In this document: one piece after another, positions 15,677 through 19,232 of the stretch
Numbering within the stretch: position 1 is the stretch's first letter
How the letters are laid out: each line of letters begins with the position of its first letter
Assembly: GCF_001517625.2 (NCBI RefSeq)
Contig: NZ_LN999824.1
Coordinates: forward strand, 1-64,000
Reading direction: 5' to 3'
DNA from: Clostridium sp. AT4
GTDB taxonomy: Bacteria; Bacillota; Clostridia; Lachnospirales; Lachnospiraceae
Length of the DNA: 64,000 bases
Position numbers and translations under genes: made by a program
Notes under the pieces: generated by a model
What the model was told of the DNA's origin: nothing
The model's database searches: none
The model's input: only the letters and a program-made list of their open reading frames with translations

Positions 15677-16120
15677 TTAATTCTTCTCAAAGCTACGGAA
15701 CCAGGAGGTCAGCTTTGTCAGCGCTTTTACAAGAGCGTTCATCTCTTCCTCTGTGAGAACGTCCATCACTCCCTGTATCATCTGTTCATGAAAATACTTA
15801 TGGTACTCGTATGCCTTGATTCCTTTTTCAGAAAGTGAAATATGAACCACCCGCCTGTCCTCTGTGCTGCGGCTCCGCACCACATAGCCTTTTTTTACAA
15901 GGCTGTTCATAGAGATGGTCAGTGTTCCTACCGTCACTGACAGCTCCTTTGCGATGGATGACATATTTTTCTTCGTTCCAACGCCGATCGCATGGATGAC
16001 ATGCATATCATTACTGGTCAGATCCTTGTTCTCATAGCTGGTAATGGCCTTCTCTTCGATATCATTGATATCCCGGAACAGATTTACCAATACATCGTTC
16101 AGTGTATCGTAAGTCTCCAC
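15677..16120 (-). CDS. MarR family transcriptional regulator
   Basis: About 147 aa starting from a GTG (VETYDTLNDVLVNLF), with AAGGA 6 nt upstream; upstream in-frame codons overlap the promoter and cannot be translated. The winged helix is at about 35-105: SNDMHVIHAIG, then MSSIAKELSVTVGTLTISMN as recognition helix region, and the wing RSTEDRRVVHI with the usual DxR motif. The effector is unknown. It has its own promoter and precedes the lipoprotein gene. FabT, which should exist to use the fab operator at 44972-44990, is also MarR-type, but the DNA around this gene holds no such palindrome. Confidence 0.9.
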   Translation of the reverse strand: METYDTLNDVLVNLFRDINDIEEKAITSYENKDLTSNDMHVIHAIGVGTKKNMSSIAKELSVTVGTLTISMNSLVKKGYVVRSRSTEDRRVVHISLSEKGIKAYEYHKYFHEQMIQGVMDVLTEEEMNALVKALTKLTSWFRSFEKN

Positions 16121-16169
16121 GTCTCTTCCTTTCACTTTCCTCAGTATCCTTCTCAGATACGCTCTACTG

Positions 16170-16198
16170 ATTGTACAGTATTTTCCTGTGTCATACAA
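16170..16198 (-). promoter_or_regulatory. Promoter of the MarR gene
   Basis: Minus strand -35 TTGTAT (16193-16198), 17-bp spacer, -10 TACAAT (16170-16175). The two hexamers form an imperfect inverted repeat (TTGTA and TACAA), so this could also be an autoregulatory site; that part is a guess. Confidence 0.6.
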
Positions 16199-16221: not shown

Positions 16222-17658
16222 TTAAAAAACTGTGTCCTGCTGCTCATTTTCAAGCACCAGACGTTTAAATTCCTCGCCGCGCTCTTCAAAATTCCGGAAT
16301 ATGCCGTAGCTGGCAGCTGCAGGCGACATAACACAGCTGCGGCCAGGCCTTGTAACCTTCTTGGCAAGACAAACTGCGTCCTTCAGATGCTCTGCCAACA
16401 GCAGTCTGGACGGATTTTCAAAATCAGGATAATCTGCCGCGATTTCCTCAAAAATCCTCTTTCCTGTGGCCTCCATCAATATAATATGGGGCACCTGCGA
16501 CTGTGACAGATATTCGATCAGCTCTCGGTAATCAATTCCTCTGTCCATGCCGCCGATTAAGATGGTATCTGTGTCCTTCAGAGTTTTTAACGCCTGAATT
16601 GCTGTCTCACAGATTGTAGAAATGGAATCATCATAATATTTAACGCCCTGTATTTCTCCCAGAAATTGTAAGCGATGAGGAAGGGGCTCATACTCCTTAA
16701 GGCCTTCCGTAAACGTTTCCTCTGCCATTCCCAGCAGGCTGCACACTGCATAAGCCATACCAATATCAAAATAATTATGCTGGCCCAAAAGGCGGATCTG
16801 ACCGGTCGGGATCTTATAACGACGGCCCTCATAGCAGATGGATGTAACGCCATCCTTTTCCTCTACATACAAAACAGGGGTTTCTTCCCGTTTTTTTCTG
16901 TCTGCCAGATTCCCCTCTGTTTTCCAGAAACGCTCAAGCGGCGGCTCAGGGAAGGAGGACTTTGCAGTAATCAGTCTGGAAACACACTCCCCCGGCTCAG
17001 GCAGACACTGAACGTTGCAGATCAGCACATCCTCCGGGGTCTGATTTAAGAAAATGTGCTCCTTGGCCCGTACATATTTTTCCATCGTACCATAGTGATC
17101 CAGATGCTCCTCATGGATATTTGATAAAATGGCAATATGGGGTGAAACGGTCATGTATTCCAGCTGATGGCAGGAAAGCTCACACACAATCTTTGTTTCC
17201 GGTACGATCTCTTCCATAAGATCGAACACGGGAATTCCGATATTTCCTGCCAGAACCGTATCGTATCCTGCATGTTTGAGCAAATGATACAGCAGCGTGG
17301 TAATCGTACTCTTTCCCTTGGTGCCCGTGATACCGGTAATCTGATCGCGGAAGCACCTGAAAAACACCTCTGTCTGGGAAAGGATCTGACAGCTGTAATC
17401 CTGCACCGGCTTTTCCAGTACCACTCCGGGACTTTTGAAAACCACATCATAATCATTCAGACAGCTCTGGTAATCCGGCCCGCTGATCCATTTTCCAATC
17501 CCTTCCGGCAGCTCCCCGGGCGCCGACTGATCCGCGATATCCACGGACTGAAAGGTTCCCAGACGCCGCAGCACCTCCCATGTGGATTTCCCCTCTCTTC
17601 CAAAGCCCAGCAAAAGTATCTTTTTCCCCCGTACCCAGGGATCAATTTTCTCTATCAC
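16222..17658 (-). CDS. murD: UDP-N-acetylmuramoyl-L-alanine:glutamate ligase (MurD family, possibly MurD2)
   Basis: 478-aa Mur ligase. N-terminal Rossmann loop GFGREGKST, ATP loop GTKGKSTI (about 110-117), the NIHEEHLDHYG segment with the catalytic His/Glu, and the C-terminal DDSISTICET region. It adds glutamate to UDP-MurNAc-L-Ala in peptidoglycan synthesis. Classical MurD takes D-Glu. Its immediate partner, 18 nt upstream, is a MurL-like protein, which in Xanthomonas works with a MurD2 that takes L-Glu. The gene may therefore encode an L-Glu-adding ligase. Sequence alone does not settle the substrate. It is isolated from the usual mur/fts cluster. Confidence 0.88.
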   Translation of the reverse strand: MIEKIDPWVRGKKILLLGFGREGKSTWEVLRRLGTFQSVDIADQSAPGELPEGIGKWISGPDYQSCLNDYDVVFKSPGVVLEKPVQDYSCQILSQTEVFFRCFRDQITGITGTKGKSTITTLLYHLLKHAGYDTVLAGNIGIPVFDLMEEIVPETKIVCELSCHQLEYMTVSPHIAILSNIHEEHLDHYGTMEKYVRAKEHIFLNQTPEDVLICNVQCLPEPGECVSRLITAKSSFPEPPLERFWKTEGNLADRKKREETPVLYVEEKDGVTSICYEGRRYKIPTGQIRLLGQHNYFDIGMAYAVCSLLGMAEETFTEGLKEYEPLPHRLQFLGEIQGVKYYDDSISTICETAIQALKTLKDTDTILIGGMDRGIDYRELIEYLSQSQVPHIILMEATGKRIFEEIAADYPDFENPSRLLLAEHLKDAVCLAKKVTRPGRSCVMSPAAASYGIFRNFEERGEEFKRLVLENEQQDTVF

Positions 17659-17676
17659 AGTCCGTCTCCTCGTCTC

Positions 17677-19107
17677 CTATGCTTCCTTTGTACACCTTTC
17701 CCTGACAAATTTTTCCCAGGGTTCAGGCACCAGATTGCTGCTGTCAAAATAAGCGGAAAACTTATTTTTCTCCGTCTGATACCGCTCATACAGGCCTGTT
17801 TCTTTATAATGTTCAAATAAAAGCGGAAGCTTCTTCCCCTCTTTTTCCATCCGCTCAATCGTTAATACAATGGCAGAATTGATCTCATCCCGGCTTCCCA
17901 CACACTCAAAGGGCTTTTCCTCCTGAATACCCGTAAGCTGATCCAAAAGAGGCTTCATCTCCTCATCCTGCAGCATATTTCTTCCGAAAACCTTCTCCAC
18001 CTCTTCCTCCGAAAGGAACGGGGACAGGATCAGATATACAAAGAGGCACTTGGGGCAGTGTCCGCACCAGCTGTCTGTTTTGCTGCCTGCATTGCAGCTC
18101 CTGAAAATAGCATGGTACTGCTTCTGCTGTGCAAAAAAGCGGGCAATCTGAAACTCGCTTAAGGGGCGCAGCATACTGAAATAGTACGCGCTTCCTGGAA
18201 GATATTCTGCCTCGTAGCGGTGAAAATCCTCCTCGAATTTAAAACTCTTGGAATACTGATGATTGACCGTACTTCCCTTTACGGTGCTCTCATTTGCACT
18301 GGATTCATTTGACAGTGCCACATAGGAAAGTCCGGCCATTCTGGCTGCCATAATGCCTGAAAAAGCTACCAGCGCAGAAAACGGAGTATGGCCGTTTAAA
18401 TAGCCCTGACGGTTTAATTCCAGCATATTCTGATCCAGCGTACGCTTTACATAAATCACATGATCCTCATCCAGTCCGGCTGCCTCTGTGGTATGGATTG
18501 TGGCTCCTCTGGAATTGATAATATAAGCATATACAGGAACGCCTGCGCCCTTTAAAAGTTCCAGGGTCACTGCGGAATCCTTGCCTCCTCCGACAGGAAC
18601 CAGTACTCCCTTTTCCGAACCGCTGACGGAGGAAAGACGCCCCTGTTTAAAAATAAATTCCGGATCATCACAGACAACATCGGATGCGTCTTCCGTTTCA
18701 GATGGCCTGCAGTGGATTTCCATAAAATCCTGAGCATTGGCCTCAGAAATATCATTCACATAGAAAAACTCTCCCAGTCCATTAAAATACAGATCCTTCC
18801 ACCAGAGAATCTGACGGTCATTTAACACACCTGCTTCCACAATCACCTCCGGTGAGCAGGTAATCTTCCAGTAGCTTACCAGCTCGACCATACCCAGAGA
18901 AAAAATCATTTTCCGGAACAGACCGTCCTTCTTCCAGATTTTCCCATCATTTACCGTCTTGGGAAACGTCCAGGTGGGCGCAAAGGAGGATAATCCCTCT
19001 ATCTCAAAATCATATGTAATCTTATATGTAAATTCTGTTTCTTCTGTCTCATATCCGTGATAATAAAAACGCGGAAATTCCTTCCGAAATTTCTGATATC
19101 GTTCCAT
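17677..19107 (-). CDS. murL: MurL-like UDP-MurNAc-L-Ala-L-Glu epimerase, PP-loop ATPase
   Basis: 476 aa. PP-loop motif GGGKDS at 173-178 marks an adenylating ATP-pyrophosphatase fold. An N-terminal domain (1-165) with SSFAPTWTFPKT and FFYVND precedes it, and conserved downstream blocks include ALSNESSANES (about 269-279) and CGHCPKC (about 349-355). This layout fits MurL, described in Xanthomonas oryzae, which epimerises the terminal L-Glu of UDP-MurNAc-L-Ala-L-Glu through an activated intermediate. Location directly before murD in an operon strongly supports this. RBS AAAGAGG lies 6 nt upstream. Alternative: another PP-loop amidotransferase-like enzyme. Confidence 0.75.
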   Translation of the reverse strand: MERYQKFRKEFPRFYYHGYETEETEFTYKITYDFEIEGLSSFAPTWTFPKTVNDGKIWKKDGLFRKMIFSLGMVELVSYWKITCSPEVIVEAGVLNDRQILWWKDLYFNGLGEFFYVNDISEANAQDFMEIHCRPSETEDASDVVCDDPEFIFKQGRLSSVSGSEKGVLVPVGGGKDSAVTLELLKGAGVPVYAYIINSRGATIHTTEAAGLDEDHVIYVKRTLDQNMLELNRQGYLNGHTPFSALVAFSGIMAARMAGLSYVALSNESSANESTVKGSTVNHQYSKSFKFEEDFHRYEAEYLPGSAYYFSMLRPLSEFQIARFFAQQKQYHAIFRSCNAGSKTDSWCGHCPKCLFVYLILSPFLSEEEVEKVFGRNMLQDEEMKPLLDQLTGIQEEKPFECVGSRDEINSAIVLTIERMEKEGKKLPLLFEHYKETGLYERYQTEKNKFSAYFDSSNLVPEPWEKFVRERCTKEA

Positions 19108-19203: not shown

Positions 19204-19232
19204 ATTATAGTGTGCAAACGGTTATTTTGCAA
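19204..19232 (-). promoter_or_regulatory. Promoter of murL-murD
   Basis: Minus strand -35 TTGCAA (19227-19232), 17-bp spacer, -10 TATAAT (19204-19209). Expected start near 19197, about 90 nt before murL. It lies between the spmB stop and murL. Confidence 0.72.

Follow-up and report, generated by a model that had tools for sequence, protein, structure and literature searches.

We analysed a stretch of 64,000 nucleotides (nt) of the contig NZ_LN999824.1 of Clostridium sp. AT4 (Lachnospiraceae), hereafter called the window, which carries on its minus strand a murL-like gene followed by a murD2-like gene. This operon is very probably the de novo source of D-glutamate (D-Glu) for the peptidoglycan of this bacterium, in which the glutamate racemase MurI appears to have been lost. 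Judging by homology to the assayed enzymes of Xanthomonas, Micromonospora and Salinispora (PMC8788868), the MurD2-like ligase would join L-Glu to UDP-N-acetylmuramoyl-L-alanine (UDP-MurNAc-L-Ala) and MurL would then invert the Glu residue in place; the inverted product would go into the normal MurE and MurF steps, so that MurI would not be needed. The original prediction had proposed such a Xanthomonas-like MurD2/MurL route for this Firmicute, and the specificity residues of the ligase, the MurL match and the exclusion of MurI, all read from sequences, support it well. Beyond that prediction, we describe a predicted QueC-like fold of MurL, the retention of a canonical murD and a wide spread of the gene pair.

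The pathway itself is already known, and its occurrence is wider than in the papers that we found. It corresponds to the MurD2-MurL route of Xanthomonas oryzae (XOO_1320/XOO_1319), for which orthologues from Micromonospora and Salinispora were also assayed, and which has been listed in some Gammaproteobacteria and Alphaproteobacteria and in rare actinobacteria (PMC8788868). Low-similarity orthologues have been mentioned in a fungus, cyanobacteria and an amoeba (PMC5808125). Our literature searches, which leave most subscription journals outside, turned up no publication that treats MurL of Lachnospiraceae or of Firmicutes, nor any that connects MurL with QueC.

The murL-murD2 operon

The murL-like gene (positions 17677-19107, minus strand) starts with ATG and encodes 476 amino acids, whereas the murD2-like gene (16222-17658, minus strand) starts with GTG and encodes a protein of 478 amino acids, the predicted UDP-MurNAc-L-Ala ligase using L-Glu. 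The stop of murL and the start of murD2 are separated by 18 nt. Both open reading frames (ORFs), their spacing and the motifs GGGKDS and CGHCPKC of the PP-loop protein are thus present as first described. The promoter that had been claimed for the operon also has a counterpart, a sigma-70-type promoter-like site (TTGCAA-17-TATAAT) located 5′ of murL (19204..19232, minus strand) that matches the consensus at 10 of 12 positions. It is the top-scoring of eight promoter-like sites between 15600 and 19900, a region that is not enriched overall (mean of 5.9 sites after shuffling, standard deviation 2.4).

The ligase carries the residues associated with L-Glu specificity

The murD2-like product scores over the curated cut-off of the MurD model TIGR01087 (301.7 versus 211.95 bits) and keeps Lys115, Glu157, His183 and Lys198 of Escherichia coli MurD. 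The Mur ligase fold is common to this protein and to the MurD of the canonical MurD and MurI route, but the two differ at three aligned sites, with E/I/R in the window and D/K/K in the canonical enzyme. Glu184 (17107..17109, minus strand) corresponds to Asp182 of E. coli MurD and to Glu197 of X. oryzae MurD2, Ile346 (16621..16623, minus strand) to Lys319 of E. coli MurD, and Arg373 (16540..16542, minus strand) to Lys348 of E. coli MurD and Arg358 of X. oryzae MurD2. Glu197 and Arg358 are the reported L-Glu determinants of X. oryzae MurD2, reverting both residues to D and K turns that enzyme to D-Glu, and E. coli MurD accepts L-Glu once it carries K319T (PMC8788868). The MurD2 of X. sacchari, used in place of X. 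oryzae for the tree and the alignment, has the same E/I/R combination (E206, I339 and R367 in one alignment); E206 and R367 are both offset by nine residues from the published X. oryzae positions.

This signature separates the two types of MurD in our dataset. MurD2-like proteins have E in 88, I in 97 and R in 97 of 97 rows, which represent 94 different genes, three having been entered twice (L193/L149, L194/L106 and L195/L119). The 33 canonical rows, E. coli included, have D in 30, K348 in 32 and K319 in 32, and D/K/K is found in all 16 canonical MurDs of MurI genomes and in 13 of the 16 canonical copies of MurL genomes. Three canonical-type MurDs of MurL genomes have altered residues (AKR in L180, NIK in L192 and EKK in L168) and are perhaps relaxed or repurposed.

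A phylogeny with Xanthomonas MurD2 had been proposed as a check. Our trees took MurD rows longer than about 380 residues and MurL rows longer than about 400. In the MurD tree, all 33 canonical MurDs fall on one side of a branch supported by a Shimodaira-Hasegawa-like approximate likelihood ratio test (SH-aLRT) value of 98, obtained with a quick method, and the window MurD and X. sacchari MurD2 fall on the other. The window protein is thus placed outside the canonical clade; the X. sacchari sequence forms a very long branch of unsure position, so that the tree shows no closer kinship between the two.

MurL has a predicted QueC/QatC-like fold

The claimed MurL-like epimerase is supported by a match of the window protein to the MurL model NF041275 (E 1.1e-73, 248 bits, model positions 11-398 of 447), and the X. 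sacchari MurL matches it with 34% identity (E 2e-57 over 340 columns). The PP-loop motif GGGKDS (MurL residues 173-178; 18574..18591, minus strand) is invariant in an alignment of 60 sequences, and in the MurL alignment that includes X. sacchari and Pseudonocardia GGG and DS are invariant and K nearly so. A predicted zinc site is formed by Cys 338, 348, 351 and 354 (C-x9-C-x2-C-x2-C; 18046..18096, minus strand, which includes WCGHCPKC), and these four Cys are invariant in both MurL alignments.

MurL is described as a protein without known conserved domains (PMC8788868). MurL used as a single phmmer query gave no match in PDB at E ≤ 1, and a MurL profile gave a weak match to TtuA (E 2e-4) followed, above E 1, by MnmA-type TrmU and a chance-like ubiquilin. 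The QueC family PF06508 was absent from the matches of the window MurL at E ≤ 0.1 and, at E ≤ 0.01, from the matches of 60 MurL family proteins; the PADLOC QueC model reached only E 0.009. Comparison of the predicted structure nevertheless points to a QueC/QatC-like fold. A sulfurtransferase of the TtuA or LarE type was also considered for MurL and set aside, with Z scores of 9.5 and 8.6, lower than those of QatC or QueC. QueC proteins exhibit the motifs SGGxDS and C(x)8CxxCxxC (PMC13329287), of which MurL has close variants, GGGKDS and C(x)9CxxCxxC. MurL thus differs from QueC, QatC and Cap9 by the spacing of its first two Cys, and its substrate is predicted to be a UDP-MurNAc-dipeptide instead. 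Such a predicted fold, with a PP-loop and four invariant Cys, would suit the adenylation of the Glu carboxylate, an idea put forward for MurL by Feng et al., according to PMC8788868. The QueC-like chemistry suggested here for MurL follows from the predicted fold and provides a testable mechanism for this enzyme.

MurL and MurI exclude each other across genomes

The genome of Clostridium sp. AT4 (3.41 Mb, seven contigs, 97.2% complete) gave no match to the MurI model TIGR00067 at E ≤ 0.001. A remote MurI homologue was looked for and discarded: the sole PF01177 hit is below the cut-off and matches arylmalonate decarboxylase better. The same holds for a D-amino-acid aminotransferase. A single protein matches Aminotran_4 and passes the cut-off as a branched-chain aminotransferase, and the strongest match to D-amino-acid aminotransferase (E 4.8e-8) comes from a part of the same gene. 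The genome encodes two MurDs over the cut-off, and the second one is canonical (D/K/K). The proposed search for murI and a second murD has therefore yielded no murI match and one additional murD of the canonical type.

Among 298 genomes of the same family, each at least 90% complete, MurL is present in 21 (about 7%), across 20 genera. MurI is over the cut-off in 258 of the 298, that is, in 258 of the 277 genomes without MurL and in none of the 21 with it (Fisher p 1.5e-21, uncorrected for kinship). MurI had no match in G102, a genome of the same genus with 99% completeness, and none was over the cut-off in the other 19 family genomes with MurL. For nine of the 29 genomes without a MurI match (G178, G195, G224, G231, G234, G240, G244, G268 and G297, of which G195, G231, G234 and G268 have MurL) this status was deduced from their absence from the match table, and the totals agree. 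A second set comprised the best 80 of at least 585 confirmed MurL relatives (named loci, with the genome names given by submitters); MurI was over the cut-off in none of the 50 of these 80 genomes in which it was searched, several of them small assemblies. The two sets do not overlap, since no two of their 102 MurL proteins are more than 95% identical. The original prediction had left open whether the route acts in place of MurI or alongside it, and these counts fit better with the former.

The cut-off of the D-amino-acid-aminotransferase model (277 bits) was reached in none of 56 genomes, and full-length hits scoring more than 200 bits served as the criterion instead. Such hits occur in two of the 21 MurL genomes (G249, 211 bits; G207, 206 bits), in three of the 19 family genomes with neither MurL nor MurI and in one of 16 MurI controls (G194, 264 bits).

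A MurD2-like gene is present in all 21 family genomes with MurL and is the only MurD over the cut-off in 16, so that it must serve the wall there. A canonical MurD over the cut-off is also kept in the five others (G000, G102, G249, G171 and G094) and in 11 of the 50 named MurL genomes, a count that leaves out the partial second MurD matches of G732, G734 and G735. From this distribution, it seems that murI was lost first and the canonical murD later.

Pairing and spread of murL and murD2

A MurD2-like ORF directly follows murL on the same strand in 19 of the 21 family MurL genomes, the window included; in G099 the two genes are about 2.7 kb apart, and in G207 they lie on different contigs. Among the 80 named loci, murL is followed by a MurD2-like ORF in 75, of which two are cut by the contig end. 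Because both sets share it, the pairing is not due to chance. The tree distances of MurL and MurD2 are correlated (r 0.90 over 93 loci, with none of 1000 permutations as high), a pattern that a shared species tree would also produce.

The nearest named relatives are records of Clostridiales 1_7_47_FAA, Enterocloster and Lachnospiraceae, and MurL relatives are also located beside MurD2-like genes in records of Ruminococcus flavefaciens, Pseudobutyrivibrio, Erysipelotrichales and Bacteroidales. In a phylum-wide sample of 398 genomes, that of the window was the sole match of NF041275; the trait is thus rare outside the family in this sample, though it is found elsewhere in Bacillota. One record named Alistipes (L100) stands among Firmicute rows in the tree and may be mislabelled.

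Compared with the system of X. oryzae, the window shares the order of murL and murD2 (as in X. sacchari), the homology of MurL, the Glu and Arg determinants and the lack of a recognised MurI or D-amino-acid aminotransferase. It differs by low identity to the X. sacchari proteins (25% for MurD2, against the 34% of MurL), by Ala and Tyr in place of Pro and Phe in the ligase and by a canonical murD that is kept, and the hosts here are Bacillota and Bacteroidota.

Weighing the explanations

Several observations weigh against assigning the D-Glu supply to MurL and MurD2. The 248 bits of the window MurL are far under the curated cut-off of NF041275 (700 bits), a Xanthomonadales model; judging by the model name, we take this cut-off to bear on the subgroup of one order and not on the whole family. 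Site 182 is D and not E in nine of the 97 MurD2-like rows, and E197D alters the specificity of MurD2 (PMC8788868). Pro433 and Phe435 of MurD2 (Ala414 and Leu416 in E. coli), two of four positions at which it differs from E. coli MurD, are the residues replaced by Ala and Tyr in the window; mutating them left the specificity of MurD2 unchanged (PMC8788868). Racemase-family hits below the cut-off occur in eight of the 21 family MurL genomes (E 2e-11 to 7e-5; none in the other 13) and in 15 of the 50 named ones (best 78.6 bits, in G734, for a cut-off of 146.65), and some of these genomes could encode a divergent racemase. MurD of the MurD2 type occurs without MurL in nine of the 19 relatives with neither MurL nor MurI, so that the two are not always coupled. 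Finally, the canonical murD of Clostridium sp. AT4 is retained between mraY-like and ftsW-like genes (here and below, the names of genes neighbouring murD were read by eye), which is odd if no D-Glu is made. Between Clostridium sp. AT4 (G000) and G102, the ratio of nonsynonymous to synonymous substitution rates (dN/dS) is 0.095 for murL, 0.080 for murD2 and 0.064 for the canonical murD; these values are rough, dS being high (1.3-1.8), and by them the canonical gene is not decaying.

This intact and constrained D/K/K enzyme, together with the canonical copies kept in other MurL genomes, would be expected if canonical MurD made most of the wall with D-Glu that is salvaged, imported or produced by an unrecognised racemase, with MurL and MurD2 as a backup; a DapF with glutamate racemase activity has been reported for Chlamydia (PMC5885031). 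We regard such a dual entry as unlikely, since a canonical MurD over the cut-off is lacking in 16 of the 21 MurL genomes of the family and no MurI reached the cut-off in any of the 71 MurL genomes covered, so that a second supply would have to be something other than MurI in each (no search was aimed at DapF). Still less probable is that the pair makes another compound, in a side pathway of a Mur ligase and a QueC-like protein unrelated to the D-Glu of the stem peptide. QueC-like enzymes do act in defence and nucleobase pathways (PMC13279940, PMC13329287), and a MurL-like gene on a plasmid of Pseudonocardia alni (L081:3764-5161), which may have another role, lacks an annotated murD in the roughly 4 kb around it (the gene table is incomplete), but the exclusion of MurI, the sole-MurD status in 16 genomes and the specificity residues argue against it. 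That an ordinary D-Glu-adding MurD happens to lie beside an unrelated PP-loop protein, murI having been missed in an assembly that is not 100% complete, is hardly conceivable given the E/I/R residues, the match of the PP-loop protein to MurL and the lack of MurI over the cut-off in G102 and in the 19 further family members with MurL.

Relatives with neither MurL nor MurI

In 19 of the 298 family genomes neither MurL nor MurI is over the cut-off. Six of them have a canonical MurD, four have no MurD at E 1e-40 and nine have a MurD of the MurD2 type, with E/I/R in five and D/I/R in four (G018, G071, G074, G132, G159, G172, G224, G244 and G297; loci L204-L213 and L214-L222). In the 13-15 kb around these nine genes, a MurL-like ORF was found only in G071 (L215, 7289-8038), and this degenerate ORF is without the PP-loop and Cys motifs. 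Either MurL was overlooked elsewhere in these genomes or another way of inversion exists. A protein similar to D-amino-acid transaminase (203-213 bits) is present in G139, G224 and G240, of which G224 is also among the nine.

Combining both observations, one may tentatively imagine, though we consider it rather doubtful, that the clade of the window runs two MurDs of opposite stereochemistry without a racemase, MurD2 and MurL acting de novo and canonical MurD salvaging D-Glu from turnover or neighbours as a nutrient, and that other members lost or replaced MurL but keep the MurD2-type enzyme, which would imply a third way of inversion.

In G172, the MurD2 gene lies between ftsQ-like and ftsZ-like genes. 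Upstream of the MurD2-type gene of G244 there is a gene that resembles D-glutamate cyclase (PF14336, 247 bits; L214:7851-8717). Four other genomes (G033, G037, G075 and G112; L203, L199, L198 and L201) have a canonical MurD with no MurI match, MurL or full-length hit resembling D-amino-acid aminotransferase.

Implications and genomic context

The route, so far reported mainly from some Proteobacteria and Actinobacteria, would now extend to a gut-type Firmicute family. MurI is regarded as a drug target (PMC6927343), and it would be none in organisms with the MurL-MurD2 route. Surveys may also err where they take a missing murI to mean that D-Glu is required or that the wall is altered; in a survey of Roseburia, the lack of murI in R. 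intestinalis was left unsettled between such readings (PMC7478625).

The genes around the operon look unrelated to it. Upstream are located genes for a Gate-domain protein and a cysteine synthase, and downstream those for a lipoprotein-like ORF and, directly after murD2, a FabT-like MarR regulator (15677-16198, minus strand; 136 bits for a cut-off of 200).
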